Source of the DNA: a virus
DNA: 25,377 bases
Strand: one strand, 5' to 3'
Virus record (IMG/VR): IMGVR_UViG_3300020061_000024
Location: 1 to 25,377 of that record
The notes beneath the pieces are model-generated. The model did not search any database. It was not told the DNA's origin and was given only the letters and a program-made list of their open reading frames with translations. The translations under genes and the position numbers were made by a program. Shown here piece after piece: positions 6,791-22,483 of the stretch (positions within the stretch are counted from its first letter, which is position 1; each line of letters starts with the position of its first letter).

Positions 6791-6819
6791 GAAAAGGCCC
6801 GCACGAATGGCGGGCCTCA
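6791..6819 (-). terminator. Rho-independent-like terminator between methylase-helicase and protease genes
   Basis: On the minus strand, AGGCCCGC-CATTCGT-GCGGGCCT (8-bp stem, 7-base loop, arms 6810-6817 and 6795-6802) is followed by TTTC, and the first arm begins within the stop codon of the methylase-helicase gene. This is the most terminator-like structure in the window. It would separate the cassette from the head genes, so protease and capsid need either read-through or a promoter in the end of the large gene; I cannot point to one. Confidence 0.65.
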
Positions 6820-9800
6820 GGTCAAGGGTTGCTGCCAGGCGAATACTGCGTTGTCGAGCGCCTCGGTCAACAGGTCCAGAAGGTCCTCGGCGAGGTGGAT
6901 GCCGAGCCGCGCCGTGTTCCGTTCCTGACCGAGACGGTCAACCAGTTCCTGGGCTAGGCTCCCGCCGGCGAGTACACCGTCGATGAGCTTGATGTACTCG
7001 CGGTAGTTCTCGATGACGGCGTTGTTCTCGGCCAGTGCCCGTGTGGCCTCGATAACTGCGGTGGCCTCGGCCTGCCGATCGGGCGGGAGGCGTTTGATGG
7101 CGACCGGTCCGGGGGTCTTGTGTTCCTTGCGTGCCTCCGCGGCCGCGGTGTCGCCGGCCTTGGCAGGGTCGGGCATAGCCGCGAACTGCTCCTTGAGCTT
7201 GGCCACAATCGTCGGGTCCGGCGCGGCCACCGAGGTCGGGGCAACCGGGGTGGGTTCGGGGGCGAGTGCCTTGACTTCCTGGTCGTGTTGGGCCTGGACC
7301 CTGATCGCCTCATCGAGGTCGGTGAAGTGTTCCCGGGCGGCGCGAAGTGCGTCGCCGTTGAACGGCACGGCGAGCCGGGCTTGCGCCTCCTCTGTGGTGT
7401 GGCGGGCGGCTTCGATGGTGGCCACATCCCTGGCGCGGACACTCTCCAAGTTGCGGAGCGTGTTCTCCAGCCGGATGGCCAGGTCACCGTCTAGGATCTC
7501 GGCCCGGCCGAGTACCGTGGCCGATTCGGGCACGTCAACGAGTCCGAGCTGGATGCCGCTGGCGTAGGAATCCCTTTCGACCCGGATGGTGAAGCCGCCC
7601 ACCTCGCCGAGGTCACGTCTGCCGTAGAAGGATGTGCCGAGCGCTTGGAGCCGTTCGCGTAGCGCGGCGGTGGCTTCGCCGCGGTTGTCGTACTCGACCC
7701 CGTTGACGGTCATGCGGAACGCATCCTTGCGGGTGTCGACCCGTCGTGCAATGGCGGCGTCGACTGCGGCGATGCCTCGCTCTGCCCGGGTGATCGTCTT
7801 CCCGGCCTCGCTGATTTTGAACCGGTTCGCCCTGTGGTCGTTGTCGTGGGCCCGTTCCAGCCGTTCCAGGCGGCTGACCTCGGCCTCTGCCTGGTAGTGG
7901 TCGATGAGTAGCTCGTTGCCGTCGGCCAGAGCCGCGGCCTCGTCAGCGGTCAGGGCAGCGTCGCCAATGTCGTCGATTTCGCGCACGTCCAGCTTGCCGC
8001 GCATGAGCTGGCTGATGAACTTGGCCTTGCGGGCTACCGTCTTCCAGTTGTAGTCGTCGAAAGACCGTTCGGTGACGTACCGGAGGACCCGCACCTCAGG
8101 GTTTTGGTTCTTCTGCCGAATGATTCGGCCCTCGCGTTGCTGCACGTCGGCGGGCCGCCAAGGGACATCGAGGTGGTGCATTGCGACGGCCCGCCACTGG
8201 ATGTTGGCGCCGGTGCCCATCTTCCCGGTGGAGCCGACCAGGACGGAGATCCGCCCGTCGTTCGCGGCGGCGAACAGTTCGACCTTCTCCTTGTCGCTCT
8301 TCGCCTCGTGGATGAACCGGATCCGCTCCCGCGGGATCCCTTGGGCGACGAGCTTGCTGCGCAGATCCTCGTAGAGGTCGAAGCCGCTACCGCCCTCCTC
8401 AGCACCCCCCGGCTTGGGTGTGCCGAGGTCGGCGAAGACGATCTGCAACGCACCCGGCGTAGGGGATAGCTCGCCGGGCTTGCCGACAACGGGGTAGACG
8501 CGGTCCCGGTTCTCCTGCCAAATCTCGGCGATCCTCTCCGCCGCTACGTCCACCTTGGAGCGCTCAGGGGTGGATCGGCCGAGCAGCCGAAGGTCAAACG
8601 CGCCCGCTCGTCCCTCGCGGGTGATGTTGAGCATGTTGTCGTCGCCTTTTTCGGGCTTGCCGCCGCGGGTCCGAATCGCCTTGGCCCGCACTCCCAGCTC
8701 GGCCATGAGGTTTTTGAGTTCCTCGCTGGGCGGCACGACGACGACCTCGGGAAGGCGTTCCCCGTCTTTGGGACGTTTGGCGAGCTTCGGGGGCTTGACG
8801 ATGTGCTCAAGATCCTCGGCGGTCTTGACGTCGCCGGCGATACCCCATGGGCGCAACAACTCTGGGACGTTGACGAACTTCGCGAAGCGGGACTTGATGC
8901 GCCAGCCGCCCTCGGGTGCGGGCTCAACCCCGGTGACGACGGTGCCGAACTGCGCGGCGAAGCTGTCGAAGTCGGTGATCCGCAAAGATTCCAGCAGGTC
9001 GGGGCGTAGGAACTTCATCATCGTGTGCGCCTCGCCCATCGAGTTGGCGATCGGCGTGGCGGTGGCCAGGGTGACGACGTGGTGCGGGTTGCGTTGACGC
9101 AGATGCCCGATCTTCATGTGCAGGTCGGTCGCGATCCCATTGCCGGGGATGCCCATACCCTCGATTGCCGATGTGCGGCGCAGATTCTTATAGTTGTGCG
9201 CCTCATCAATTAGCAAATAATCGATGCCTGTCAATTCGAATGTGATGCCGGGATCCTTCTTGGCCTTGGCAATGTTGGCCTTGATACGTACTTCGGCTTT
9301 CTGCTTTGCCGCCTCGATCTGCTTGACCGTCTTTTCCTTGGCCTGCTTGTCCTTCCCATATCCGGCGTGCCGTGCGGCGGTTCTGGCCCTGTCAATGGCT
9401 TCGTCAAGGACCTTGAGCTCGTCGAGTAAAAACGCTTCCTGCGCTTCTGCCGAGAGCGGGATGGATTTGAAGGCATCCTTGGTGATGATGACGGCGTCCC
9501 AGTTGCCGGTAGCGGCGTGGGCGATGAACTCCCGCCGCCCGTTCCGCGTCTTCGTCACCGTCAAGTCGTCGCTGCCCGCGGCGAGGATCCTGGCCTGCGG
9601 GTAGATTTGCAGGAACTCGTTGCGGAACTGCTCCAACATGTGATTCGGCACCACGATTGCTGGTTTCCGAGCAAGGCCCAGCCTGCGCAGCTCCATCGCA
9701 CCGATGGTCATCACGGCTGTCTTGCCCGCCCCGACCTCATGCCACAACCCGACCGAGGGTTCAGCGATGATCCGGGCGACGGCTGCCTTCACATGCGGAT

Positions 9801-12800
9801 GAGGGGCGAACCGTGTCGACATTCCGGGCAGCGACGGGTCAACACCGCTGTACGTCCGCAGCACCAGCGAGTTGAACGTCCGGTTGTAGGTCGCGGCCAT
9901 GTCGTCGGCACGGGCAGGGTCTTCCCACACCCACTCGGCGAACCGTTCGCCCATCGCCCGGGCCTTCTCGTTCGCCGCCTCGGTCTTGACCGGGTTCAGG
10001 ACCCGCTTCTCGCCACCCTCGCCGTTGTCGACCACGTCGGTGACCCGAATGGGTCGCAGTGTCAGCAAGCTTTCAGCGATGTCGATAGCGCTACGGTCGG
10101 GAGTGCCCCACTCGGATGACGCGGCGATGGTTTTCTTGTTGCCGGAGACTGTCCACTCGGAGCCGTAGGGATTCTCGACCCGTACCGACCCGTCGCGCAG
10201 GATCTCGGTCAGGAACTGCGCGACATACTTGGGTTCGATCCAGGTGGCTCCGAGCTGGGCGCGGATCTCGGTCGCTCCCAGATCCGGCGGGAGGACCTGC
10301 TCCAACGCCTTGACGTTCAGTTCGAATTCAGGGTTTTCGGCGGCGGCCAGGCGCGCGGCGTCTAGCTTTTCGCGGACGTTGCCGGACAGGTACGCCGGCG
10401 CCGGCACCAGCTCTTTCGTGTCGGGATCGTCGTAGACGAGTTCGCCGAGTTCGCGGCGGGCGGTGTCGTTGTCGACTCCGAGGAGCCGCGCCACCTCGTC
10501 CAGCCACACGCGGCCGTTCTCGTCAAGGCTGATGTTGAGCGCGTCGGCGGGGGTGTCCGCGCCAAGTTTACGTTCGCGGGGGGCGGCGACCCTGCCGTAC
10601 AGAATGTCGGCCTTGCTGGTGGTGCCCTGTGCCGGGTCGTAGTTCTCCAGGCCTTTGACCGCCGCTGCGTACGGATCCTCACGGAACCCGCCCTGTGCCG
10701 GATGCCGCCGACCCATGATCGGTTCGCCGGTTTCGGGGTTGGTTTTGCCGGTGCGGGTCGCCGTGTACCGGTTGATCGGCCCGTACTCGGCGACGTAGCC
10801 GTCATAGGCGTCGTTGAGTTCCGCCCGGAGCCGGCCCATCTTTTCGGTGTCGTCCGCGTTGGCCGACTCTTCGTCGAGGAGCGCGAGCTCGACGTCGCGG
10901 AGGTGCAGCAGGGCGCGCAGTTCGGCGGCCTGGGCCTTCGGCGGCGTGAATGGCTTCGCGGTGGCGCCCCGGACCTGGCTGAACGTGCCGTCGGGAAGGG
11001 CGCGGATGTAGCCGTCGGGTTGCTGTTCGCTGAGCGGGATGAGGTCCGGTTCGGTACGGGACTCCCCGTCGGCTGCGGTCATGGTCAGGCCGTTGGCCTT
11101 CGCCCGGCCCACGATCTTGTCCAGGGCATCGCGCAGGGCAGGGCCGGCGTCGGAGTCGCCGTCAACGGTGAGGTCGTTGGCGTAGTGCATACCGCCCAGG
11201 GCTAGCTTGCCGAGCACCAGGTCGGGGTGCTCGTGGAAGACTTCGTTGATGGCGACCTGTGTCCCGTTGACGTCGACGGGGCGGCTCTGCTCGAACGGGA
11301 GCCCGGCCGGGGCCGCGCCCGGTTCGCGGCGGCGAAAGACCAGCAGGTCCGTGACGACTGCGGTGCCGGCGGCTCGTTGGTGCGCACCTGACGGCAGCCG
11401 GACGGCTCCGACGAGGTCGCCGAGTTCGGCCATCTCGCGGCGGGCGGCCGGGTTGCGGGAGTCCAATGTGTAGCGGGAGGTGAGCACCGCCACCAGACCG
11501 CCCGGGCGGGTCAGGTGCAACGACTTCAAAATGAAGTGGTTGTGGATGCTGTGCTTGCCCTTGTTGTGGCGTGGGTCTGCGAGGCGGATCCCTTCGGCGA
11601 AGGGCACGTTGCCGACAGTGACGTCGAAGGTGCCGTCGTCGAGGCGGGTGTCGGCGAACGACTCGGCTCGCACCTGCGCGTTCGGGTACAGGGCCTGTGA
11701 GATGGCGGCCGTGGTGGGGTCGAGTTCCACTCCGACCATGTGGGCGCCGTCGGGTGCCCGGCCCATGAAGTTCCCTGAGCCGGATCCTGGTTCGAGGACC
11801 CGTCCGCCGTCGAAGCCAAGTTTGCCGACGGCGTCCCACATGGCGTCGACATAGTTGGCGTCGGTGTAGTGGGCGTTGAGAATGGAGCGGTTCGCGGCGG
11901 CGTACTCCTGCTCGCTCAGCAACTCCTTCAGCTCACGCTGTGCCGGGCCCCACTTCCGGTCCCACTCCTTCGGGTTGGCAGGGTTGGTGTCGAACACCTT
12001 CGGGAGCGCACCCCACCCGGACCAGCGGGCAAGCGCTGATTGCTCGTCGGCGGTGGCGGGCCGACCCTCGGACTGGATACGACGCAACGTGCGCAACGCA
12101 TCCATGTTGGCGCGTAGCCTCGCCATCTCCCCGGATGGGGCAAGGTCGCCCTGCCCGGCCGGGCGGAACACCGGCGCTACATCGGGTCCTCGTCTCCCTC
12201 CGCCCTGGGCAGGGTCTCCCGTAGCACCTGTTCCTCCGCCATCAGCCGAGCCCAGTTCAGCCGGCCGATCCTCTTCATAAACGTCTCGCCCGGCGGTGCC
12301 GTCCCCTCGTGGTCCGGGGTCAGCTCCGCTATCCAATTGCTTATCTGCTCCCCCAGGTTCGTGAAGAACGTCTCCCGGTCGGGCATCGCCTGGTACTCCA
12401 CTGGCCGGCACTTCGCCCAGTGCGTCTGCGCCAAGTCTCCGTAGCGATTCATCTGCATCCGCCGCCTTCTTGTGCTCGACCAGCCGATCCACGAGGTCGG
12501 CTTTCTTGCCAGTCTTCGGCAAACCTGCCTCGGCGAGCAAGCCCTTCAGGTCGGTCACCTTCAACGCCGCGAACCCGGCTCGGAGGTCGTCCCGCTTGTC
12601 CCGCTTCACGTGCCCGACCAGCCGGTCCACGATGTCGGCCTTCTTGCCGCTCTTCGGCAGCCCGGCGTGGCCGAGGACTGCCTTCAGCTGGGGCATCTTC
12701 AGCGCCGCGAACCCGGGCCGCGGGTCGTCCCGCCCGGCCGCCGCGTCGAGGATCCCCTGCAACACATCCGGCGACCAGCCCCCGGGGCTTTTCACCCACC

Positions 12801-13341
12801 GGCCACCGTCGGCGCCGCCCGGGTCGCGCAGCTGCTCCTTCCAGTGGTCGCTTTTGTGGTCGCTCTTGGTGCCGGAGCGCCCGCCCGCGGTGGGTCCGTG
12901 CCCGAAAACCTTGAAGTACCACGCCCCGGCCGTCTTGTGCGCCAGGAGCTCATTACCGTCCATGTGCTTGAGGAGATGGTGATACAGAGCCGTGTACGGG
13001 TGTGGGCCATCCGCCCACTTGGCGAGACCTTCGACGGATTCCGTCCAGTAATGCTTGAGTCCCTCGCCGCCCGGGTGAGTGTCCTCACCGGCGATGCGCT
13101 CCCAGGACTCGTCCCAACCACGCTCACCGGGATACGCCTCACCGTTGGATTCCCACCGGACACCGCGGTCACCGTCGATCGGCCGCCGATGGTCCAAGGT
13201 GTTTGCCCAGACCGCATCCGGCATGCCCTGCGGATACGCCCCACAGGAGGTGACCGTGCCCGTGACGACCCACGACCGGAGGTGTAGGCACGTGGAGCAC
13301 TGGGACACGTCGCGGGCGAGGAGGGACAGTGGCTGGCTCAA
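6817..13341 (-). CDS. giant zinc-ribbon/SAP/N6-adenine methylase/SNF2 helicase polyvalent protein (DarB-like)
   Basis: About 2174 aa from TTG 13341, which has AAGGGAGG nine bases upstream. The frame stays open to 13401, but starts there lie at or inside a hairpin and lack a Shine-Dalgarno. Order: Cys residues 15, 18 and 33 with CSTCLHL and CGAYPQGMPD (zinc-ribbon-like); a KHYWTESVEGLAKWADGP module about 96-150; the shared RDPGG-GGRW tag 167-183; two SAP-like DNA-binding repeats 205-292 (SGKKADIVDRL, TGKKADLVDRL); a Gly/Asp-rich linker 293-405; an N6-adenine methylase with motif I VLEPGSGSGNF at 515-525 and GNVPF at 577-581; an SNF2-type helicase with Walker A HEVGAGKT 1201-1208, DEAH 1379-1382, TATP 1427-1430 and QQREGRIIRQ 1734-1743; and a helical C-terminus. 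P1 DarB, an injected antirestriction protein, has a similar methylase-helicase plan. The linker is overlapped by a nested gene, so the ORF may be a fusion of two genes or be expressed as two products. Confidence 0.9.
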   Translation of the reverse strand: MSQPLSLLARDVSQCSTCLHLRSWVVTGTVTSCGAYPQGMPDAVWANTLDHRRPIDGDRGVRWESNGEAYPGERGWDESWERIAGEDTHPGGEGLKHYWTESVEGLAKWADGPHPYTALYHHLLKHMDGNELLAHKTAGAWYFKVFGHGPTAGGRSGTKSDHKSDHWKEQLRDPGGADGGRWVKSPGGWSPDVLQGILDAAAGRDDPRPGFAALKMPQLKAVLGHAGLPKSGKKADIVDRLVGHVKRDKRDDLRAGFAALKVTDLKGLLAEAGLPKTGKKADLVDRLVEHKKAADADESLRRLGADALGEVPASGVPGDARPGDVLHEPGGADKQLDSGADPGPRGDGTAGRDVYEEDRPAELGSADGGGTGATGDPAQGGGRRGPDVAPVFRPAGQGDLAPSGEMARLRANMDALRTLRRIQSEGRPATADEQSALARWSGWGALPKVFDTNPANPKEWDRKWGPAQRELKELLSEQEYAAANRSILNAHYTDANYVDAMWDAVGKLGFDGGRVLEPGSGSGNFMGRAPDGAHMVGVELDPTTAAISQALYPNAQVRAESFADTRLDDGTFDVTVGNVPFAEGIRLADPRHNKGKHSIHNHFILKSLHLTRPGGLVAVLTSRYTLDSRNPAARREMAELGDLVGAVRLPSGAHQRAAGTAVVTDLLVFRRREPGAAPAGLPFEQSRPVDVNGTQVAINEVFHEHPDLVLGKLALGGMHYANDLTVDGDSDAGPALRDALDKIVGRAKANGLTMTAADGESRTEPDLIPLSEQQPDGYIRALPDGTFSQVRGATAKPFTPPKAQAAELRALLHLRDVELALLDEESANADDTEKMGRLRAELNDAYDGYVAEYGPINRYTATRTGKTNPETGEPIMGRRHPAQGGFREDPYAAAVKGLENYDPAQGTTSKADILYGRVAAPRERKLGADTPADALNISLDENGRVWLDEVARLLGVDNDTARRELGELVYDDPDTKELVPAPAYLSGNVREKLDAARLAAAENPEFELNVKALEQVLPPDLGATEIRAQLGATWIEPKYVAQFLTEILRDGSVRVENPYGSEWTVSGNKKTIAASSEWGTPDRSAIDIAESLLTLRPIRVTDVVDNGEGGEKRVLNPVKTEAANEKARAMGERFAEWVWEDPARADDMAATYNRTFNSLVLRTYSGVDPSLPGMSTRFAPHPHVKAAVARIIAEPSVGLWHEVGAGKTAVMTIGAMELRRLGLARKPAIVVPNHMLEQFRNEFLQIYPQARILAAGSDDLTVTKTRNGRREFIAHAATGNWDAVIITKDAFKSIPLSAEAQEAFLLDELKVLDEAIDRARTAARHAGYGKDKQAKEKTVKQIEAAKQKAEVRIKANIAKAKKDPGITFELTGIDYLLIDEAHNYKNLRRTSAIEGMGIPGNGIATDLHMKIGHLRQRNPHHVVTLATATPIANSMGEAHTMMKFLRPDLLESLRITDFDSFAAQFGTVVTGVEPAPEGGWRIKSRFAKFVNVPELLRPWGIAGDVKTAEDLEHIVKPPKLAKRPKDGERLPEVVVVPPSEELKNLMAELGVRAKAIRTRGGKPEKGDDNMLNITREGRAGAFDLRLLGRSTPERSKVDVAAERIAEIWQENRDRVYPVVGKPGELSPTPGALQIVFADLGTPKPGGAEEGGSGFDLYEDLRSKLVAQGIPRERIRFIHEAKSDKEKVELFAAANDGRISVLVGSTGKMGTGANIQWRAVAMHHLDVPWRPADVQQREGRIIRQKNQNPEVRVLRYVTERSFDDYNWKTVARKAKFISQLMRGKLDVREIDDIGDAALTADEAAALADGNELLIDHYQAEAEVSRLERLERAHDNDHRANRFKISEAGKTITRAERGIAAVDAAIARRVDTRKDAFRMTVNGVEYDNRGEATAALRERLQALGTSFYGRRDLGEVGGFTIRVERDSYASGIQLGLVDVPESATVLGRAEILDGDLAIRLENTLRNLESVRARDVATIEAARHTTEEAQARLAVPFNGDALRAAREHFTDLDEAIRVQAQHDQEVKALAPEPTPVAPTSVAAPDPTIVAKLKEQFAAMPDPAKAGDTAAAEARKEHKTPGPVAIKRLPPDRQAEATAVIEATRALAENNAVIENYREYIKLIDGVLAGGSLAQELVDRLGQERNTARLGIHLAEDLLDLLTEALDNAVFAWQQPLT
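12177..12458 (-). CDS. nested small protein, 93 aa, in another frame inside the methylase-helicase linker
   Basis: Starts at ATG 12458 with AAGAAGG about six bases upstream (a second ATG is two codons on) and ends at TAG 12177. The product begins MQMNRYGDLAQTHWAKCRPV and continues with RETFFTNLGEQISNWIAEL and RIGRLNWARLMAEEQVLRET, a balanced helical protein with three Trp residues. By hand count 81 of its 93 codons end in G or C, against about 45% for the long frame over the same DNA, so the nested frame carries the coding signature. Small proteins of the form 'Y...A...W......Y..I.D...FF..LGE' are, as far as I recall, often encoded just before actinobacterial phage or element methylase-helicases. 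Six bases after its stop, GTG 12171 could start the methylase-helicase on its own. Function unknown. Confidence 0.75.
   Translation of the reverse strand: MQMNRYGDLAQTHWAKCRPVEYQAMPDRETFFTNLGEQISNWIAELTPDHEGTAPPGETFMKRIGRLNWARLMAEEQVLRETLPRAEGDEDPM
12793..12843 (-). repeat. tag motif copy: WKEQLRDPGGADGGRWV (methylase-helicase protein)
   Basis: Copy of the cassette-wide motif, followed by the helix SPDVLQGILDAAAG. The DNA at 12820-12840 matches 20 of 21 bases with the copies at 19270 and 20179. Confidence 0.8.
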
Positions 13342-13350
13342 CGGCGCGCG

Positions 13351-13358
13351 CCTCCCTT
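13351..13358 (-). promoter_or_regulatory. ribosome binding site supporting the TTG start of the methylase-helicase gene
   Basis: AAGGGAGG on the minus strand, nine bases before TTG 13341. No comparable site precedes the alternative GTG 13401 or ATG 13389. Confidence 0.65.
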
Positions 13359-13390
13359 CGGAGATTGTCGGCGGGCGCGACGGGGGCATA

Positions 13391-13424
13391 CGTAAGGGCA
13401 CCGCGCCGTCGCGATGCCCTTACG
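13391..13424 (-). other. hairpin in the leader of the methylase-helicase gene
   Basis: CGTAAGGGCA (13391-13400) pairs perfectly with TGCCCTTACG (13415-13424). Inside, after one mismatch, CGCG pairs with CGCG around CCGT, giving 14 pairs in all. It lies in the 121-base gap after the 65-aa gene and upstream of the preferred TTG start. There is no T-run. Possible roles are a terminator, an mRNA processing site or translational control. Confidence 0.55.
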
Positions 13425-13661: not shown

Positions 13662-15116
13662 TCATCCCTCCCTATCGGTAGCCAGTCCCTCAAATTCCGC
13701 GAAGTCCATCACGATGCCGTCCGGGTTCTCGGGGGTCCCGAGAATGTCGTCGATGCTGGCGTCGATCCGCATCACCTTCACGTCGAGTGTCCCACCCCGC
13801 GCGATGCTAGCCAGCGAGGCGCCCGCCCAGCGGTGATGCCCGTCGACAACCGCCCATTCGTCGCCCTGCCGGCCGACGATCATCACACCGGACTCCAACC
13901 AACCGCCGTCGCGCATGAAGCCGTACAGTTTCGCGACCTTCGGCGCGTTCAGCTCGGACTGTGATGCGACCAGCTGGCGGGGGTCCATGGTGCCGTACTC
14001 GAACTTGACACCCTTGTCGGCAAGGAACTGTTCGAAGTCCTCCATGGTCCTGCCCTTGGCGGTGTCGCCTTCTTTCCCGAAACCGGTCGGTAGTTGCGGC
14101 ATCGTGTCGCGCGGCCTGTCCCGCAGGTGCCGCTGGAACAGGTTGCCGTTGCCGGCACCGTCGACCTGCAAGTTGGCGAGGTTGAACGGTTCCGGCTGGC
14201 CGGTTTTGATCGCCTGCATCAGCCCGTCAACCTGAGCCGAGGCGATAGTGGTCTTGTTGCCGCCAGCGAGTTGCAGCATCGCCTTCCGCGCCTGCGGGTC
14301 CCCACCGCCGTGAATTCTCGGTTTGACCAGGTCGTTTAGCAGTTGCTTCGCGATTTCGTCACGGTCCGCGCCCGGCCGCACCTTGAGGCCGCGCAGCTTC
14401 GCCACCTTACGCAGGACCGGCTTGTCGAAGCCGTCGAACGGGTCGCCCTTATGATCGCCGTTCAGCCACTTCGCGATCTTGTAGACAAGGCCGGCGATCG
14501 AGGGCTTAAACTTGCCGCCGAGCTTAGGTGTACCTTTCGGCCAGCGGGGATGCTTCTCCGGGTCGAACACGGGGGCGTCCCGGATGAACAGGTCGTAGAG
14601 CGCCAGTGCCCGCTCAGCGTCCCCGCCTGCGTTGAGGCGGTCGATCTCCTCCAACGCATCCAACAACGCCTGCGAATCCTCGTCCAACCCGTTGTCGTCA
14701 TCGTGGTCGTCATTAGGGCCGTCATCGGCGTCGGCTGGTGCGTCGTCCAACGCCGCGAGGAGCTGCTGCGCGGCGCGTACGTTTACCGTCGCTGGCGACT
14801 GCGGCACGCCGTCGGCGGGAAGCAACCCCCACCGGCGAAGCAGGACCGGCAGGTCGTCGACCCGAAGGTAGCGGCCCACAGGACGCAGATCGTCGGCGCT
14901 CACAGCAGGGACTCCCATCCTGGGGGGTGGCAATTCGGTTCCTGCCCACAGGGGTGGGCGCGCTTCGATGGACTCGACGAGGCGTTGCACTCCGGCGGGA
15001 AGGTCGGTCCAGTCGGCGGCGTGTTCCGCCGCCTCGACGATGAGCCGCCGCTCCACGACGGAGACATCCCTGGTCCCGACCGCAGCGCCGAGTCGACGCG
15101 ACAGTTCAGGAGACAC
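13662..15116 (-). CDS. ParB-like polyvalent protein, 484 aa
   Basis: GTG 15116 has AGGAGG six bases upstream and overlaps the 2027-aa gene's stop by 11 bases; the frame is open to 15260 but the extra part is Ser/Thr/Pro-rich shadow of the upstream gene. Residues 1-60 are helical. An acidic low-complexity stretch follows (about 124-147, many Asp). Residues 184-205 carry the cassette tag in its HPR form (EKHPRWPKGTPKLGGKFKPS), followed by the helix IAGLVYKIAKWLNG. Residues 232-265 (LRKVAKLRGLKV, DRDEIAKQLLNDLV) resemble an SAP/HeH helix pair. The C-terminal domain has the ParB/sulfiredoxin-fold signature AVVDGHHRWAGASLA at 422-436, with strands on both sides. ParB-like domains bind nucleotides or DNA; in phage polyvalent proteins they occur as nuclease- or NTPase-like modules. 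Enzyme activity here is unproven. Confidence 0.85.
   Translation of the reverse strand: MSPELSRRLGAAVGTRDVSVVERRLIVEAAEHAADWTDLPAGVQRLVESIEARPPLWAGTELPPPRMGVPAVSADDLRPVGRYLRVDDLPVLLRRWGLLPADGVPQSPATVNVRAAQQLLAALDDAPADADDGPNDDHDDDNGLDEDSQALLDALEEIDRLNAGGDAERALALYDLFIRDAPVFDPEKHPRWPKGTPKLGGKFKPSIAGLVYKIAKWLNGDHKGDPFDGFDKPVLRKVAKLRGLKVRPGADRDEIAKQLLNDLVKPRIHGGGDPQARKAMLQLAGGNKTTIASAQVDGLMQAIKTGQPEPFNLANLQVDGAGNGNLFQRHLRDRPRDTMPQLPTGFGKEGDTAKGRTMEDFEQFLADKGVKFEYGTMDPRQLVASQSELNAPKVAKLYGFMRDGGWLESGVMIVGRQGDEWAVVDGHHRWAGASLASIARGGTLDVKVMRIDASIDDILGTPENPDGIVMDFAEFEGLATDREG
13667..13672 (-). promoter_or_regulatory. ribosome binding site of the 65-aa protein
   Basis: GGGAGG on the minus strand, six bases before ATG 13660, inside the end of the ParB-like gene. 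It decides the short start. Confidence 0.7.
14502..14567 (-). repeat. tag motif copy, HPR form, in the ParB-like protein
   Basis: FDPEKHPRWPKGTPKLGGKF followed by the amphipathic helix IAGLVYKIAKWLNG. It matches the copy at 17320-17391 most closely (both have HP-x-x-PKGTP-GG/KGG). Confidence 0.75.
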
Positions 15117-18100
15117 CGGAAGCCTCCTCAACGGTGAGTGCGGTTCGGTTGAGGATGACGTAGTTCTTGGTCCCGAGTCCGTTCGGCCGCGGGCCGCCGG
15201 GTTGTCCGATGTCGAGGACGATCGCGTCGTAGCCGCGGGCGGCAGCGTATCTGCCGACATCCCCGAATGCCTTGGCGGCGTTCGATCCGGGCTTTCCGGT
15301 TTCCATCATCGTGTAACGGAACGCCTCATCAGAGATGCTCTTGTAATCGATGACCTTCGCGTCCTTGTGTAGGACGGCCCGGGCGATGCCGTGGTCATCG
15401 TCGTCGGTGTAGTTGCGGGCATCGTCGTGATTGTCGGTGAAGTAGTAGCCGTTGCCGTAGAGCCCGTTCCCGAAGTACGCCGAACCGGATCGAAGCTGCT
15501 CAGTCTTTTCCGCGCCGGTTATGCTGCTGCCGTCCCTCTGGTCAGCCCCACGGAACACCTCGGTGTGCCCGGTGAGCACCAACTGGTCAATGGTCGCGGC
15601 CGAGGCAACGGTCGGTGTGCGGTCGAAACCCTGCATGGCTGCGATGACCGACAGTGCCTGGTCTGCTGAACGGTGCTGGTCCCGTTGGGCGGCCACCTGG
15701 TCAGCTAGGCCCGCCGCGTCGACCGCAATCAGATCCCGTCCTACCGCAGGCCCTGGCATCTTGCCCTGAGCCTTGAGTGCCAGGACTGTCTCATTCACGA
15801 GCAGGCTAGCCATCTCGCGGCTGAGGCCATCAGAGACGTACATATCAATGATCTCTTCGGGAGTGTCCTCGCCGTATTCGAGTGCATCGGCGATGTCTCG
15901 TGCGTGGCCGCTTTTCAGCAGGGCTGGATCGCTGTAGTCCACGCCAGGGACGACGGACGTGCGCGGTGCGACCTTCTTCGCAGCCGCCACCTTGGCGGCG
16001 ACCGCGGTGACCAGGTCGGCCTTCTTCTTCCCGCTGCCAGCGCCCAAACCCATGCGCTTCATCAAGGCCTTCAGTTCGGTGACCTTCATGCCTCGCAGCG
16101 CGTCCTCGGCGGCACTGCGGTCGTTGAGCTCACCCAACTGGGCGACGATCGCGTCGAGATCGGAGGCCGCCGGTGCAGTTGCCTTGGCTACTGCGGGTGC
16201 CGCCGCCGTGCCCTTCTTGGCTGGCGCTGCCTTCTTCGCCGTCTTGGCCGGAGCGGTTTGGATCTTCAACAGGTGCCGGGGCTGGTCACCGATAACGACC
16301 GCCGCGTCATTGTCACGAGCGGTCAGTGTCTTGGTGTTCAGCTCCTCCATGAGGAGGACGTCAGGCCGCTCGATCATTCGATCAAGCACCGCGTCCACGG
16401 TCGCCTTGTCGACACCGCCGAGCCGCTCCCGAAGGTCGGCCAGCTGGACCCAACCCAACGTCCCCGGCCGGTCGGCTATGAGATCGCTATATGCCTCGCG
16501 AATCCGATTCTCGACCTGCGCCTCGCGCACCGCCGGGTCATCCGACAGGCCACCAGCATCGGCCGGCCGCAAACTTGGAGCGGGTGACATCGGTCGGCCG
16601 CTGAGTGTTGAGTTGTACGCGGTGGCGATCTGCTGCCGTACGCGCTGCGCGAGCGGAGATGCGCCGTCGCCGTGTAGGGCGTCATCGGCAAGCGCTTCGG
16701 CAACCATGGCCTCACGCGATCGCAGGGCATAATCGCCGAGCTGTGCCTTGATGCCTGCCTGGACCTGTCCTGGGTCGCCGTGGTCGAGACCGGCGTCGCC
16801 GAGATACGCCTTGACCGCCACGTCGACATGCTCATGACCGCGGCCGCCAGTCATCGCATCGACAGCAGATCCGAACAGCGACGCCGCCACATACGCAAAG
16901 TCGTTGCCGGGCCGTCCATGTGCCCCACCGCGACGCAACCTCTGAAGGTTGGACGTACGACTCATGGCCGTGGACTCGTCGAGCAGGACCTCGACCGCGC
17001 CCGACCTCGGGTGGACCGTCGCCGTGCCCCACACATCCAAACCGTCGGCCGGCTTGCCGACCGAAACCTTGTCCAGGCGGGTCTCTGGCCACCGTTCAGC
17101 ACCGCGGAGCAAGCCTTCGGCATACTCCTTGGCCGTAATGAGGTTGGTCTTCTGGCCCAGGTCCACGTCGACCGGCCGCCCCAGCGTCCGGCGCAGTTCG
17201 ATCCGCAGCCGGGTGTTGACGTCCGCCACCGACTTCAGCCTGCTGATCTCCGGCCGTACCTTCACCGGACCACGGCCGTGAAGGTTGGCCAGCTTCCCCA
17301 AAGCTTCGCCGACATGCGGCATCCACTCGCCGCCCTTGCCGCCGGGAGTCCCCTTCGGATACTTCGGGTGCAGCTTCTTGTCGTACGCGCGGGTTGCGCT
17401 GTCCGGTTCGGCGTCATCGTCGGTGAGTAGCGAAAGCGCGAGTGTCGCCTGGAATCGGTTGAACTCTTCGGCACTTAGTTCGACCTGCGCGGCCTCGACG
17501 GAGTCGCCGGCTTCAAGGGTGCGGGATCCATCCGAGTGGCGGGTCGACCAGTCGAAGTATCTGCCGTCGTCGAAGGTCACCGCTCCGTCGTCGAAGAGAC
17601 CGTCTTCGTCTCGCTCGACCGCAAGGTCGACGAGCACCCGTTGGTCAGGGAGTGACTCCCGAATGCGGGTCAGTGCCAACGCCCGCGAGAGTCGCTGCTC
17701 TTCGTCGTCGTCGAGCGGCAAGACTACGGACTCCTTGCCGCCGCTTACCTCGTAGGAACGACAACCGTCCTCGCCGGTGCTCGACCAGTCGATGTATCGG
17801 CTGTCATCGAAGGAGATGCCCCCGCCATCATCCTCGCTACCCAGGGCCTTCAACGCCGCTGCGATACCAGCACCGGAGCCGACGAACTTGCCGTCCTCTG
17901 AGTTGCGGGGATGGTGCGACTCGAAGTCGACGTCGCGCTGGGCGCGCTGCTGGTTCGAGTACGCTCGGGCAGGCTCAGCGGCTTCGTCCGCAGCCAGGTG
18001 CCGGCCGCGACCGTTCCACTCGGCCTCGTCAATGACGGCGTCGAGCGCCTCAACCATCTCGGACAGATCACCGGCCGGGATGGTGACGAGCCGCCCGGCG

Positions 18101-21100
18101 TCGCCGATCTTGGCGATGGTGACGGTGCCGTCCGACTTGGCCTCAACGTCGTACGTGTGGAGGAGCTTGCGGCTGCCAGCAGGTCCGCCTTCGACACCGG
18201 CGCCGAGGTCACGCAACTCCGCCAAGGTGTCGCGGGCGATCTTTGCCTGCTCAATGTTGAGGAGCAGGTCCCAGGTTCCGCCGCCGTCGGAGGTGAGTGC
18301 GATGTCGTGGTCGGTGAAGAGGGTCACATCGTAGCTGCCGCCTACGCTGACGGTGTCTTCTTCTTCGGGGTCGAAATCGGCGACCTCGCGGAGGGTGTCC
18401 GCGAAGTTGGAGGCGTCGTTTGAGTCCATGTGCCAGACGTCGAAGTCGGTTTCAAGCCGATCCGGGTCGGGCTCCTTAACACCGTCCTTCGGCCAACCGA
18501 TCAGGATTTCGCTGTCCGGGTTGTATCCGACCAAGACGTCCAGATCGGGGATGACCTCATAGTCGACCAGTCGCATCTCCCGCTCGGCCGGTGACTCGTC
18601 GGCGAAGTCGGGGTCTTCGGGGTCGTCGATGTAGTGGTCGATGTCGGCATACATGCGGTCGATCACGTCGGCAACGGCCCGCGCGGAGTCCGGGTCAAGA
18701 TAGTCCGCGTGGACAGCACGGCCAGGAGACTTTTCGCCCTCGAGGTGCGGGGCGTCCGAGGTGACGACGATGTTCTCGCCCCAGTACCGCCCGACGTAGG
18801 TGTCGGGCTGCAACAAGGGGCTCTCCTCGGTGACGAGGAGTCCCTGGGTGTCGAAGAGTTGCCGCAGTGTGCGGAATGACGAGTGAACGAACGTCCCATC
18901 GTCTGGGCTGCGGGGGTGCAACTGCTCAAAGTCGGCGTCACGCCCGAAGCCAGACTGGTGCCCAGCGACTGCCGCCGCGACCTTCGCGAACTTCGCAGCC
19001 TTCTTGGCTTTGAGTCCCTTCGTCAGCAGGTCTGCCAGCTTGGCTGCCGCCAGCACCTCACCGCCAGGCACGAACATCAGCCCTAGTGACACCACATCCA
19101 AGGGCGAGACGGTCAGGTCGAGCGGTGTTCCCTTGTAATCAACGGAGAAGTGCGCGCCCTTGATGCCGAGACCGTGGTAATGGACCTTGTCTGCCTTGCC
19201 CTTGAGCCAGCCCCCGATCTTGCCCACAGTCTCAGCTGCACCCGGAACGCCGTCCGTCCATTTGCCGTCCGGGTCGCGCAGCTGGTCCTTGTCGAACTTC
19301 CGCGCCGACCTTGTCCCAGCGAGAGCCAGCATCTTGTCGAGCAGGCGGACGACCTTCGCGGATTCGGCTGCGTATAGATGGGCGCGAGCCTCGGCGAACT
19401 CGACGTCTTCGGATGTCATCCCGTCCGGGACAACCCACAGGTCGGTCTGCGGCCCGGACTCCGGCTCGTCAACAACGACCCTGTAATGGACGCGGCCCGA
19501 CTCGGCCGGAATCGAGCCGACTGCTACCTCGACGTGGGGCAGATCAGGATTGACGGTCCCGTCTGGAATCGCATCCCACGCAGCCTCAACCTCAGCCAGC
19601 GCGACCTTCGCCCGTTTGTTCGCGTCGGCGAGGATGTCACGCAACTGCGCAGCGGCGGCCGAATCGAGCTTGGCGGTATAGCCGCTCGCGAAGACCTCGC
19701 TCGTGTCAAGGTCTTCGATCTCGCCGAGCCGCTTCTCAATCTCATCTTGCCGGGCGATGATGCGGTCAAGCTCGGCGTCGTCCTCGACCGAAATCGGCGG
19801 GCCGTCGTGCAGCGAAGCGACATACTTGGCGGAGAGCGGGTCCCGCTGCTCCCAGAGGCGTGCATCCTCGTCTTCGAGTCGCGTGCGTTCATCCTGGATC
19901 TTCTGCCGATCGGCGTTCAATTCGGCGAGGGACTCCTGACCGCGCCACGGTCCGGCCTCATCGTCGCGGCTGCCGAACATCCCGTCGCCGAGGCCTATGC
20001 GAAGGGCCCGCTGGCCGTCCTTGCCGGTCACAGCCAGCCGGACAGTGCCGTCGTCGGCTGACACTTTGTCCGATCCGAGAAGCTCCTCGCCGTCATCGAG
20101 GCGGATCTTCCCAGCCAGTTTGAGTGCATCCTTCAACGCGCCGCCAGCCGTGACCCACTGCCCGCCGCCTTCGCCGCCCGGGTCGCGCAGCTGGTCCTTA
20201 TCGAACTTGCGTGTGTTGCCAGGGTGAGAGCGGGTCGTATCGAAGGTCTCGTTGAGGTCGGCCAGGGCATCCACGCTCGTATCGCCAGCGACGTCCCTGG
20301 GCTCGTAGCTCGGCCGCTGTGCGTCGTCGTCATCGTCGTAGTCCTCGGCCTCGGCCTCGCGGATCATCTCCTCGACCTGGTCGGCCAGCGCGTGGGCGTC
20401 ATCCTGGCTGAAGTCCCGCAGCACCCCCCGCTTGTCCTCGCCGGCGTCGACCGTGAGGACGACACGGCCACCGTCGTGGGCCTGGACGTGGTGCTTGTCG
20501 CCGACTGCGCTCTCATCGGCGAGAACCCCGAACGTCTCGGCCAGTTCGTCCATGGCGCGACCAGCCGACATGAACTGTCCGCCGTCTTCTCCGCCTGGAT
20601 CGCGGGGCTGCGTCTTCCAGTCCCTCGTTGCCGATACGCCCGTGAGCGGAATGTCTGTGATCACACCACCGAACGCGACTCGTACGCGATCGAAGGTGAT
20701 CGAGCCGACGCGGTCAACCAGGTCCGCGACCCGGGATGCGTCACCAGAGAAGACGAGGGTTACGTGCGCTGCGAACGGCTGCCGCGGTGCTGGTAGGTCT
20801 GCCCCGTAGTCCTCGACGGCGGCCGCGGTGGCGTTGTACGCGCGGGCGACGTCGTCTCCACCCACCAGCCCGACGATCGCCGGTTCGTCGCCGGCCGGGT
20901 TGAAGATGGCAAGCGAGAACAGGTCTCCCGTGACGGGACCGAAGCTGGCGAAGTACGCACGCACAAGCTCAACCAGGTGCGCCTGCGACGGCCCGCCGAA
21001 GTCAACCGCCTTGCCCAGGTACCGCAACGTCAGGTGCAGGCGGTCGACCGGCTCCCCTCCGGGTACAGCCAGACGCTTCGTGTCCTCATCGGACGGCACC

Positions 21101-21189
21101 AGCGCAACCATGGCGCCGGTGTGGACCTCGGCCGCACGGGCAAGCCGTTCGAACACATCAAGGGAGCGGAGGAGAGCGTCGACTGACAC
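15106..21189 (-). CDS. 2027-aa polyvalent protein: 2H phosphoesterase to ADP-ribosyltransferase
   Basis: GTG 21189 is preceded by AGGAG; M26 is the main alternative start. Order: 2H phosphoesterase about 26-186 with HLT (52-54) and HVT (142-144); tag 1 (189-210); tag 2 (327-349); coiled coil about 420-495; tag 3 (630-647); hydrophobic helices about 696-742; tag 4 (749-770); an acidic region with repeating strand-helix units; tag 5 (1085-1105); two alike FDD-x-RY-x-DW units at about 1125-1176 and 1204-1255; tag 6 (1267-1290); a domain resembling a phage metallopeptidase that has lost HExxH (SLFGS, 1437-1441); winged helix about 1558-1643; Ala/Lys linker; SAP-like pair 1698-1736; and an ADP-ribosyltransferase-like domain about 1865-2018 (VFRG, FGNGLYGNGYYFTDN, NYVILNRTAL). 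2H enzymes cut cyclic or 2'-phosphodiester bonds; ART domains transfer ADP-ribose from NAD. Probably carried in the head and injected; that is inferred from family knowledge and gene position. Confidence 0.9.
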   Translation of the reverse strand: MSVDALLRSLDVFERLARAAEVHTGAMVALVPSDEDTKRLAVPGGEPVDRLHLTLRYLGKAVDFGGPSQAHLVELVRAYFASFGPVTGDLFSLAIFNPAGDEPAIVGLVGGDDVARAYNATAAAVEDYGADLPAPRQPFAAHVTLVFSGDASRVADLVDRVGSITFDRVRVAFGGVITDIPLTGVSATRDWKTQPRDPGGEDGGQFMSAGRAMDELAETFGVLADESAVGDKHHVQAHDGGRVVLTVDAGEDKRGVLRDFSQDDAHALADQVEEMIREAEAEDYDDDDDAQRPSYEPRDVAGDTSVDALADLNETFDTTRSHPGNTRKFDKDQLRDPGGEGGGQWVTAGGALKDALKLAGKIRLDDGEELLGSDKVSADDGTVRLAVTGKDGQRALRIGLGDGMFGSRDDEAGPWRGQESLAELNADRQKIQDERTRLEDEDARLWEQRDPLSAKYVASLHDGPPISVEDDAELDRIIARQDEIEKRLGEIEDLDTSEVFASGYTAKLDSAAAAQLRDILADANKRAKVALAEVEAAWDAIPDGTVNPDLPHVEVAVGSIPAESGRVHYRVVVDEPESGPQTDLWVVPDGMTSEDVEFAEARAHLYAAESAKVVRLLDKMLALAGTRSARKFDKDQLRDPDGKWTDGVPGAAETVGKIGGWLKGKADKVHYHGLGIKGAHFSVDYKGTPLDLTVSPLDVVSLGLMFVPGGEVLAAAKLADLLTKGLKAKKAAKFAKVAAAVAGHQSGFGRDADFEQLHPRSPDDGTFVHSSFRTLRQLFDTQGLLVTEESPLLQPDTYVGRYWGENIVVTSDAPHLEGEKSPGRAVHADYLDPDSARAVADVIDRMYADIDHYIDDPEDPDFADESPAEREMRLVDYEVIPDLDVLVGYNPDSEILIGWPKDGVKEPDPDRLETDFDVWHMDSNDASNFADTLREVADFDPEEEDTVSVGGSYDVTLFTDHDIALTSDGGGTWDLLLNIEQAKIARDTLAELRDLGAGVEGGPAGSRKLLHTYDVEAKSDGTVTIAKIGDAGRLVTIPAGDLSEMVEALDAVIDEAEWNGRGRHLAADEAAEPARAYSNQQRAQRDVDFESHHPRNSEDGKFVGSGAGIAAALKALGSEDDGGGISFDDSRYIDWSSTGEDGCRSYEVSGGKESVVLPLDDDEEQRLSRALALTRIRESLPDQRVLVDLAVERDEDGLFDDGAVTFDDGRYFDWSTRHSDGSRTLEAGDSVEAAQVELSAEEFNRFQATLALSLLTDDDAEPDSATRAYDKKLHPKYPKGTPGGKGGEWMPHVGEALGKLANLHGRGPVKVRPEISRLKSVADVNTRLRIELRRTLGRPVDVDLGQKTNLITAKEYAEGLLRGAERWPETRLDKVSVGKPADGLDVWGTATVHPRSGAVEVLLDESTAMSRTSNLQRLRRGGAHGRPGNDFAYVAASLFGSAVDAMTGGRGHEHVDVAVKAYLGDAGLDHGDPGQVQAGIKAQLGDYALRSREAMVAEALADDALHGDGASPLAQRVRQQIATAYNSTLSGRPMSPAPSLRPADAGGLSDDPAVREAQVENRIREAYSDLIADRPGTLGWVQLADLRERLGGVDKATVDAVLDRMIERPDVLLMEELNTKTLTARDNDAAVVIGDQPRHLLKIQTAPAKTAKKAAPAKKGTAAAPAVAKATAPAASDLDAIVAQLGELNDRSAAEDALRGMKVTELKALMKRMGLGAGSGKKKADLVTAVAAKVAAAKKVAPRTSVVPGVDYSDPALLKSGHARDIADALEYGEDTPEEIIDMYVSDGLSREMASLLVNETVLALKAQGKMPGPAVGRDLIAVDAAGLADQVAAQRDQHRSADQALSVIAAMQGFDRTPTVASAATIDQLVLTGHTEVFRGADQRDGSSITGAEKTEQLRSGSAYFGNGLYGNGYYFTDNHDDARNYTDDDDHGIARAVLHKDAKVIDYKSISDEAFRYTMMETGKPGSNAAKAFGDVGRYAAARGYDAIVLDIGQPGGPRPNGLGTKNYVILNRTALTVEEASGVS
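15123..15128 (-). promoter_or_regulatory. ribosome binding site of the ParB-like gene
   Basis: AGGAGG on the minus strand, six bases before GTG 15116, within the last codons of the 2027-aa gene. Confidence 0.7.
17320..17391 (-). repeat. tag motif copy 6 in the 2027-aa protein (HPK form)
   Basis: RAYDKKLHPKYPKGTPGGKG then GEWM, followed by the helix VGEALGKLANLHG. Closest relative is the copy in the ParB-like protein. Confidence 0.75.
17875..17937 (-). repeat. tag motif copy 5 in the 2027-aa protein (HPR form)
   Basis: RDVDFESHHPRNSEDGKFVG followed by the helix GIAAALKALG. Pairs with copy 4 (RDADFEQLHPRSPDDGTFV). Confidence 0.75.
18880..18945 (-). repeat. tag motif copy 4 in the 2027-aa protein (HPR form)
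   Basis: RDADFEQLHPRSPDDGTFVH followed by the helix SFRTLRQLFDTQG. Confidence 0.75.
19249..19302 (-). repeat. tag motif copy 3 in the 2027-aa protein (RDP form)
   Basis: RKFDKDQLRDPDGKWTDG followed by the helix AAETVGKIGGWLKG. At DNA level 19270-19299 matches 20179-20208 at 29 of 30 bases. Confidence 0.85.
20143..20211 (-). repeat. tag motif copy 2 in the 2027-aa protein (RDP form)
   Basis: RKFDKDQLRDPGGEGGGQWV followed by the helix ALKDALKLAG. Contains the second arm of the 29/30-base direct repeat (20179-20208). Confidence 0.85.
20560..20625 (-). repeat. tag motif copy 1 in the 2027-aa protein (RDP form)
   Basis: RDWKTQPRDPGGEDGGQFMS followed by the helix AMDELAETFG. It directly follows the 2H phosphoesterase domain. 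Confidence 0.8.
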
Positions 21190-21278: not shown

Positions 21279-21524
21279 TTAAAGGATGGCCGACTTGCGC
21301 GCCGCCGCCAACCGCTGGTATGCCTCGGTGGTCAGCCGCGAGTCGGCGTTGACCGCGTCCCAGGAGTCCGGGTCTGGCGCCGCGCCGATGTCGCCCTGGT
21401 ACGCCTGCGCGAGGGACGCCCTGGGTTGCTGCCTCGGCCAGGCACGGCGACGGAAGTCGGCCTCGGCCTCCATCAAGGTCATGGTCCCAGCGGCCAGCCG
21501 GTCAAGCACCTCAGCGACGGTCAC
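21279..21524 (-). CDS. hypothetical protein, 81 aa, between zeta-like and 2027-aa genes
   Basis: GTG 21524 overlaps the stop of the zeta-like gene (GTGA), and TAA ends it at 21279. The N-terminal half is helical (MTVAEVLDRLAAGTMTLMEA, then EADFRRRAWP). The second half holds LAQAYQGDIGAAPDPDSWDA and a C-terminal helix TEAYQRLAAARKSAIL. Small proteins with an 'L..G..T..E...DF..R.WP' start are familiar beside phage portal and MuF-like genes, but I do not know their function. Tight coupling to a toxin-like kinase makes an antidote or partner role possible. The 89-base gap after it contains only the ribosome binding region of the next gene and a weak hairpin. Confidence 0.75.
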   Translation of the reverse strand: MTVAEVLDRLAAGTMTLMEAEADFRRRAWPRQQPRASLAQAYQGDIGAAPDPDSWDAVNADSRLTTEAYQRLAAARKSAIL

Positions 21525-22483
21525 CGCCCCACCCCCTTGTCGACCAGCCTAGGCGCACGACCCCACACCGAGTTGTCGAACATGGACCAGTCGTCAAACA
21601 TACTGCGCATGCCCAAAAAGGCATCCTTGTTCATGGTGGTGCCGTGAGGGGTCAGGTACGACCGGATCACGTCAGGCGGCACGAACCGGCCGCCCAGCCC
21701 GCTGCCTGCCCGGAGCTCATCAGCGCCCTGCCGGTAACGCCCAAGTGCACGCTCCACCGAAACCTCAACCGGAATGTCGACAAACACACCCGAAATGTCG
21801 CGGTAGCCGTTCGCCCGCATCGCATTCACCCTGGTCGAGATCTCCTCGGGCGAGCCCATGGTGATATCCCAAATCACGTTCCTCCGGTCACGGTACGCCA
21901 TGTCCGCCATGAGCTCGGCGATGCGCCGCGACTCGGCGTGTACCAGCGCAGCACGTTCCATCGGCGACAAGTCGGGGTGGCCAGGCACCTCCGGCACCAG
22001 TCCCCGGCGAGCCATCTCTTCCTTCACATCGTCCGGGTTGATCGTGAAGTACTGTCCGGGGTCTATTCCCGCGTGCTCGCGCAAAACCGAAGTTTTTCCG
22101 GCGCCTCCAAGTCCGCCGGACATGACCGCGCGACCGTCACGCGGAACGTGCGACGCCTGGGCGTACATGTCGGCGGCGATCTCGCGGTGGATCGCGTCAC
22201 GTTCCGGATCCCAGACGCCGTTCCCGTCGGAATACAAGACGTCAGAGCCGTGGGTGGTGAAGGCTCCCTTCATCACCTCTGCGACCCGTTCCACCCGCGC
22301 GTTGAACTCCACGTCCGTCATTGGCCTGCCCGGGGTGTGGGTAGCCGGGTCGCCGAAGAGTTTCTTCACCGCGGCGACCGGATCGCCAATCCATTGACCG
22401 CTATGGGGGTCACGTGGCTGGTTCTTGTCGAACTTGCGGATCAGCGCGACGATGTCGTCGGCTGCCCGTTGCAGGTCAGTCAT
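21521..22483 (-). CDS. zeta-toxin-like P-loop kinase with N-terminal tag motif, 320 aa
   Basis: ATG 22483 lies in an ATGA overlap with the portal stop; the frame is open to 22561 but only over the portal gene. Residues 17-31 carry the cassette tag (KFDKNQPRDPHSGQW), followed by the helix PVAAVKKLFG. The zeta-like domain spans about 117-285: Walker A GGLGGAGKTS at 123-132, FTINPDDVKEEM near 146-157, a helix with HAESRRIAELMADMAYRD, the strand NVIWDITM near 202-209, and FVDIPVEVSVERALGRYRQ with arginines placed like the catalytic ones of zeta kinases. Zeta toxins phosphorylate UDP-N-acetylglucosamine and block cell wall synthesis; related phage proteins may phosphorylate other targets. No epsilon-type antitoxin is seen, unless the 81-aa neighbour serves. 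The tag suggests it belongs to the same cargo set as the large proteins. Confidence 0.88.
   Translation of the reverse strand: MTDLQRAADDIVALIRKFDKNQPRDPHSGQWIGDPVAAVKKLFGDPATHTPGRPMTDVEFNARVERVAEVMKGAFTTHGSDVLYSDGNGVWDPERDAIHREIAADMYAQASHVPRDGRAVMSGGLGGAGKTSVLREHAGIDPGQYFTINPDDVKEEMARRGLVPEVPGHPDLSPMERAALVHAESRRIAELMADMAYRDRRNVIWDITMGSPEEISTRVNAMRANGYRDISGVFVDIPVEVSVERALGRYRQGADELRAGSGLGGRFVPPDVIRSYLTPHGTTMNKDAFLGMRSMFDDWSMFDNSVWGRAPRLVDKGVGR
22391..22435 (-). repeat. tag motif copy: KFDKNQPRDPHSGQW (zeta-like protein)
   Basis: Located at residues 17-31, in front of the helix PVAAVKKLFG. Shares KFDK-x-Q with copies 2 and 3 of the 2027-aa protein. Confidence 0.85.

Follow-up and report, generated by a model that had tools for sequence, protein, structure and literature searches.

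The case for long nested genes in bacteria usually rests on single genomes, and such genes are thought to be young. An experimentally supported orphan overlapping gene of Escherichia coli likewise makes bacterial DNA dual-coding and is described as recent in origin (PMC4683798), whereas the pair described here is common to elements of Actinomycetota and Bacillota. In phages, an out-of-frame HNH gene carried within methylases (ShiLan) is a patchily distributed homing element (PMC11855218). Our locus resembles ShiLan in that a gene is hidden in the other frame of a stop-free stretch of a phage DNA methylase gene, corresponding to a loop in the host protein. In contrast to the homing element, the hidden gene here is TnpV-like and occurs in every methylase locus of a sample drawn by the methylase core, and in two phyla. 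The hidden frame had no HNH match in Pfam, PHROGs or NCBIfam, and instead of a patchy distribution among related methylases, all 37 core-selected contigs carried the nested gene.

TnpV (PF14198) of Tn4451-type elements belongs, at a distance, to the same family, and in elements of Bacillota typical TnpV genes occur nested. Unlike the pair reported here, the TnpV genes described so far are stand-alone genes, some of them neighbouring site-specific recombinases or resistance genes, and a role of TnpV in excision has only been postulated, by its likeness to Xis (PMC3158075). The surrounding giant ORF falls among the polyvalent proteins and DarB-like methylase-helicases, which share a methylase-helicase dyad and variable N-terminal modules; neither "TnpV" nor "overlapping" occurs in the text of the survey of these proteins, and a hidden linker gene is not described there (PMC5512222). 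We found no earlier report of the nested pair in the open-access literature, and one may exist elsewhere.

Giant ORF and nested gene in the window

The window, i.e., the whole stretch of DNA analysed, is a virus record of 25,377 bases with a tailed-phage head module (portal and prohead protease matches, with weak terminase and major-head matches). Its features relevant to the nested pair are as follows.

6817..13401, minus strand: giant ORF of 2194 aa with SAP repeats, linker, N6-adenine methylase and SNF2-type helicase, a DarB-like polyvalent protein by PHROG and Pfam matches
12472..12714, minus strand: two SAP domains in the long frame, directly upstream of the nested gene (PF02037, E 3.8e-21, two stretches; codon-position GC normal for a coding frame)
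12465..12469, minus strand: Shine-Dalgarno (SD)-like GAAGG, 6 nt ahead of ATG 12458 (from the sequence and from SD enrichment at the nested starts of homologues)
12178..12459, minus strand: Gly/Asp-rich linker (residues 315-408), the long-frame reading of the overlap, between the SAP part and the methylase; stop-free in homologues
12177..12458, minus strand: nested TnpV-like gene, 93 aa from ATG 12458 (91 aa from ATG 12452), in the +1 frame of the giant ORF (from homologues and AlphaFold2)
12169..12171, minus strand: in-frame GTG, a weakly supported candidate start of a separate methylase-helicase, without a good SD ahead; ATG 12126 is also in frame
11611..11799, minus strand: methyltransferase core match (residues 535-597; Methyltransf_25, E 0.0035, below the cut-off; PHROG methylase matches)
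8113..9762, minus strand: SF2/SNF2 helicase part (ResIII, residues 1214-1405; Helicase_C, residues 1692-1763; Pfam)

The giant ORF opens with GTG 13401, and its real start is uncertain, with ATG 13389 and ATG 13224 as alternatives. PHROG 10089 (DarB-like antirestriction) matched it with 1361 bits across residues 312-2059, and the Pfam domains SAP, ResIII and Helicase_C were matched as well. An adenine methylase and an SNF2-type helicase are thus joined in one polypeptide of a phage or mobile element, as in DarB-like polyvalent methylase-helicases. The codon-position GC of the long frame follows a normal coding pattern both before (0.72/0.39/0.92) and after (0.69/0.46/0.83) the overlap. Elsewhere in the record, a 2027-aa ORF of the head module (15106-21189, minus strand) has RNA-ligase-like, LigT phosphoesterase-like and head-maturation-protease matches and shares 155 nt with the ORF at 13662-15260, and an ORF with a zeta-toxin domain (21521-22561, minus strand; PF06414, E 2e-16) adjoins the portal gene.

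Within the overlap, the normal coding pattern belongs to the nested frame (0.62/0.44/0.87) and not to the long frame. Codons ending in G or C make up 87% of the nested frame (about 81/93) and 44% of the long frame (about 42/94); our recount reproduced the hand counts of the preliminary description (81/93 versus 42/94), and the start signal of the nested gene and GTG 12171 are as it had described them. The second in-frame ATG, at 12452, fits the MNxYG start of the family. The nested stop is TAG 12179-12177, and GTG 12171 begins 6 nt past it. AlphaFold2 confidently predicts four helices for the nested protein (pLDDT 89.4, pTM 0.74); a fold search with this model gave no significant match in PDB or BFVD, and a sequence search of PDB gave chance-level matches alone. 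The window by itself proves nothing about dual coding: a long frame open across 91 codons is unremarkable (P = 0.43 by synonymous permutation, 0.23 with helicase codon usage), and its significance comes from the comparison with homologues.

Homologues, fixed phase and stop avoidance

Homologues of the small gene exist and stand next to methylase-helicase genes, which bears out the earlier proposal of a real second gene. A tblastn search with the nested window protein found matches in 70 plasmids at about 36-47% identity, the genera listed being Actinomycetota, and the small gene lay directly ahead of the methylase-helicase gene in the plasmid loci looked at. The same query (P0002) gave zero matches in the phage set by tblastn, and scans of viral contigs with single proteins (P0002, the SAP part and the L041 small protein) also gave zero. 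Profile-profile comparison (hhalign) aligned the window small-protein family with Bacillota-type TnpV (PF14198) over 81 columns (probability 96.9, E 1.9e-10). Against the Pfam TnpV model, the window protein scored 14.3 bits, under the 27-bit gathering cut-off, and Bacillota-type nested proteins scored above it (142 bits in L096 and 29 bits in L098). By its profile, the window small protein is TnpV-like, a distant homologue of TnpV; its nearest relative seen is the small protein of L117 (50% identity).

Annotations of these loci conflict. Some give a TnpV protein followed by the start of a helicase, and in older records a long helicase is the sole entry for that DNA. In L101 and L102, TnpV is annotated and the surrounding giant ORF is absent from the plasmid gene table, so that each annotation hides one member of the pair. 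Three Actinomycetota-like loci come from records titled otherwise, namely L020 and L026 (Arthrobacter-type, titled Vibrio cholerae) and L040 (titled Deltaproteobacteria MAG); these titles probably reflect contamination or misassigned records.

The phase between the two frames is fixed. Loci were drawn from plasmids, genomes and viral contigs. In each intact Actinomycetota locus whose gap is at most 450 nt, the small gene closest to the methylase has the helicase frame at -1 relative to it, although anything from ~30 to 390 nt separates the small-gene stop from the methylase core. L039 alone departs from this phase, its reading frame being broken by an indel. Small genes that lie farther away, or that are the first of two tandem copies, have phases 0 and 1 and a closed frame; in the tandem pairs of L054 (887-1773) and L076 (1039-1779), only the second copy, adjoining the methylase, is nested and in -1 phase. 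Apart from L007, all intact near-methylase loci have a helicase frame that runs open from a point ahead of the small gene.

Stop codons in the long frame are strongly depleted over the small gene. The expectation came from permuting synonymous codons gene by gene in 36 small genes sharing at most 60% identity, a non-redundant set which, like the disjoint pairs used below, reduces shared ancestry among loci and does not remove it. The helicase frame held 9 stops, all in L007, versus 37.6 expected, and 35 of the 36 loci were open. Control frames were at expectation: 173 stops were observed versus 162 expected in the +1 frame, and 192 versus 187.5 in the helicase-core -1 frame. Viral contigs fetched by alignment of the methylase core only, some of which may be plasmids or integrated elements, formed an independent sample. 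The small gene was present, nested and in -1 phase in 37/37 of them, with zero long-frame stops; its match was weak in one contig (L148, E 6e-3). The 16 non-redundant contigs gave 0 stops versus 14.2 expected.

Bacillota-type TnpV loci (n = 19, 38-56% GC) provide the same contrast in a second phylum. TnpV ORFs are nested in the same -1 phase in the phage contig L096 (45% GC) and the Listeria phage contig L098 (38% GC), and overall 12 loci are nested and 7 stand alone. The nested loci held 0 long-frame stops versus 29.5 expected by permutation and 77.8 from composition, and the stand-alone loci held 40 versus 51.7 expected. At fourfold third positions of the small gene, which the long frame reads as first positions, the composition was 56% G and 8% T in nested loci versus 22% G and 21% T in stand-alone loci. 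The Iamia plasmid L099 has the nested arrangement too, and an apparent 1-nt indel in its overlap shifts both frames together.

These counts bear on a reading in which three separate genes are used, i.e., an upstream protein, the small protein and a methylase-helicase starting at GTG 12171 or later, with the open frame as a by-product of high GC. RefSeq often places the helicase start past the small gene, the GTG at 12171 lies in frame, and the search for relatives with separate genes, which the preliminary description had suggested, found L007 and L078-L081. However, both the stop avoidance with neutral control frames and the open frames of the entire core-based sample argue against it, and the nested Bacillota loci are equally open at 38-56% GC. 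Without a stop, a ribosome translating the SAP part must run into the methylase. We therefore consider three separate genes very unlikely, and a separately made methylase-helicase, which may still exist, is not needed for the explanation.

The relatives with separate genes differ in form. In L007 (NZ_CP108576.1 240299-269347), from a Streptomyces microflavus plasmid, the small gene is followed from 7489 onward by one annotated gene of ~29 kb (~9,700 aa), which is annotated as a UvrD-helicase domain protein and is separate from the small gene, not nested. In L078, L079, L080 and L081, the small gene stands alone in a longer version, about 750-830 nt ahead of the methylase core. The helicase gene of these loci is separate, and in three of them it begins MYQTPR.

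A phase of exactly -1 in every intact nested locus would also be accounted for by programmed -1 frameshifting, in which ribosomes translating the small gene would shift to the helicase frame and make a fusion of small protein and helicase. However, slippery heptamers are not enriched (9 observed versus 9.9 expected) and share no common position, i.e., no conserved heptamer was found, and slippage does not account for an open, coding helicase frame ahead of the small gene. We regard frameshifting as highly improbable.

Selection, start signals and the upstream segment

Synonymous constraint is evident in the small gene. In 18 disjoint locus pairs, fourfold-site divergence was 131/823 (0.159) in the small gene versus 951/3065 (0.310) in the helicase core (p 5e-19), and a wider set of 101 non-independent pairs agrees; codon bias could partly cause the lower divergence. 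This comparison across homologues, which had been proposed as a check, thus found divergence at half the helicase level and selection in both frames. Stop avoidance and synonymous constraint together support dual-coding DNA, i.e., a same-strand nested pair with both frames under selection. Selection is not confined to the long frame, and the 93-aa protein has independent homologues.

The segment upstream of the small gene, judged by its substitutions, evolves as coding sequence of the helicase frame. Changes at codon positions 1/2/3 of that frame numbered 39/43/86 in the 18 disjoint pairs. The frame often encodes a short peptide there, e.g., MARxRK...QLSLDxFLW, which resembles the QLxLF sliding-clamp motif (PMC4549789) and occurs in 12/35 non-redundant loci versus 0.1 expected in shuffled sequence. 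Neither the excess of third-position changes nor these peptides would be expected if the upstream part were a gene separate from the helicase. The clamp-motif peptide is absent from the window, where SAP repeats occupy that place.

An SD match of at least 5 nt precedes 50% of nested starts (36 loci) versus 8.7% of 458 out-of-frame internal ATG/GTG codons. The match is absent at the starts of L073, L074, L075 and L089, and in several distant members the aligned frame opens with a codon other than ATG, so that some loci may have lost the small protein or carry it in degenerate form. The distant members without an obvious start codon or SD would fit a reading in which the long frame alone is used, the nested ORF being either a relic or a shadow of sequence conservation in the long frame. 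To this reading we assign next to no probability, since it is the nested frame that carries the normal coding GC pattern in the overlap, and the nested protein is a confidently folded prediction from a conserved family with stand-alone members.

Origin and meaning of the nested pair

The arrangement is not particular to this lineage. The preliminary description had proposed that the SAP gene lost its stop and collapsed an ancestral three-gene order. Nesting in this -1 phase is instead common to dozens of plasmids and phages, whose upstream parts are very different (a short clamp-motif peptide, DnaG_N, MuF, a Mu-type portal or SAP), and we dropped a stop loss specific to the window. Because the upstream parts differ, nesting is older than the architecture of the window, and SAP is one of many N-termini. 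Among the core-selected contigs, L117 has a Mu-type portal domain in the N-terminal part of its long frame, and L118 has a MuF domain there. The portal domain of L117 (471-3500, plus strand; PF06074, E 2.9e-44) lies in one open frame with the host ORF of the small gene and the methylase core, which suggests either the fusion of a portal to a DarB-like protein or a long frame that is open by chance.

On comparative evidence, the locus is very probably a maintained nested pair, in which the long frame is read through the whole overlap and the small gene is read from an internal start, making the DNA dual-coding. Ribosomes that start upstream would read the long frame across the overlap to make the giant DarB-like methylase-helicase, with the overlap as a flexible linker. 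Others would start internally at the SD site and ATG of the nested gene to make the small helical TnpV-like protein. The TnpV frame has host-like codon usage and stand-alone relatives, which suggests that it came first and that the linker arose by overprinting on it.

The nested pair probably predates the split of the Actinomycetota and Bacillota forms of the element, with its phase fixed and both products made and needed, while annotation shows one product or truncates the N-terminus of the helicase. More tentatively, the constant adjacency of the two genes raises the possibility that the small protein is a co-produced partner or regulator of a methylase-helicase that protects incoming DNA, and that nesting keeps the pair together and co-expressed as the element moves.

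Many annotated helicases of this methylase-helicase family probably lack their true N-terminus, including the sliding-clamp-like motif, and many copies of the small gene are probably unannotated. Dozens of divergent elements allow comparative tests of both frames, and the stand-alone TnpV genes serve as a natural control. The nested pair would offer a concrete case for how overprinted DNA persists over long times.
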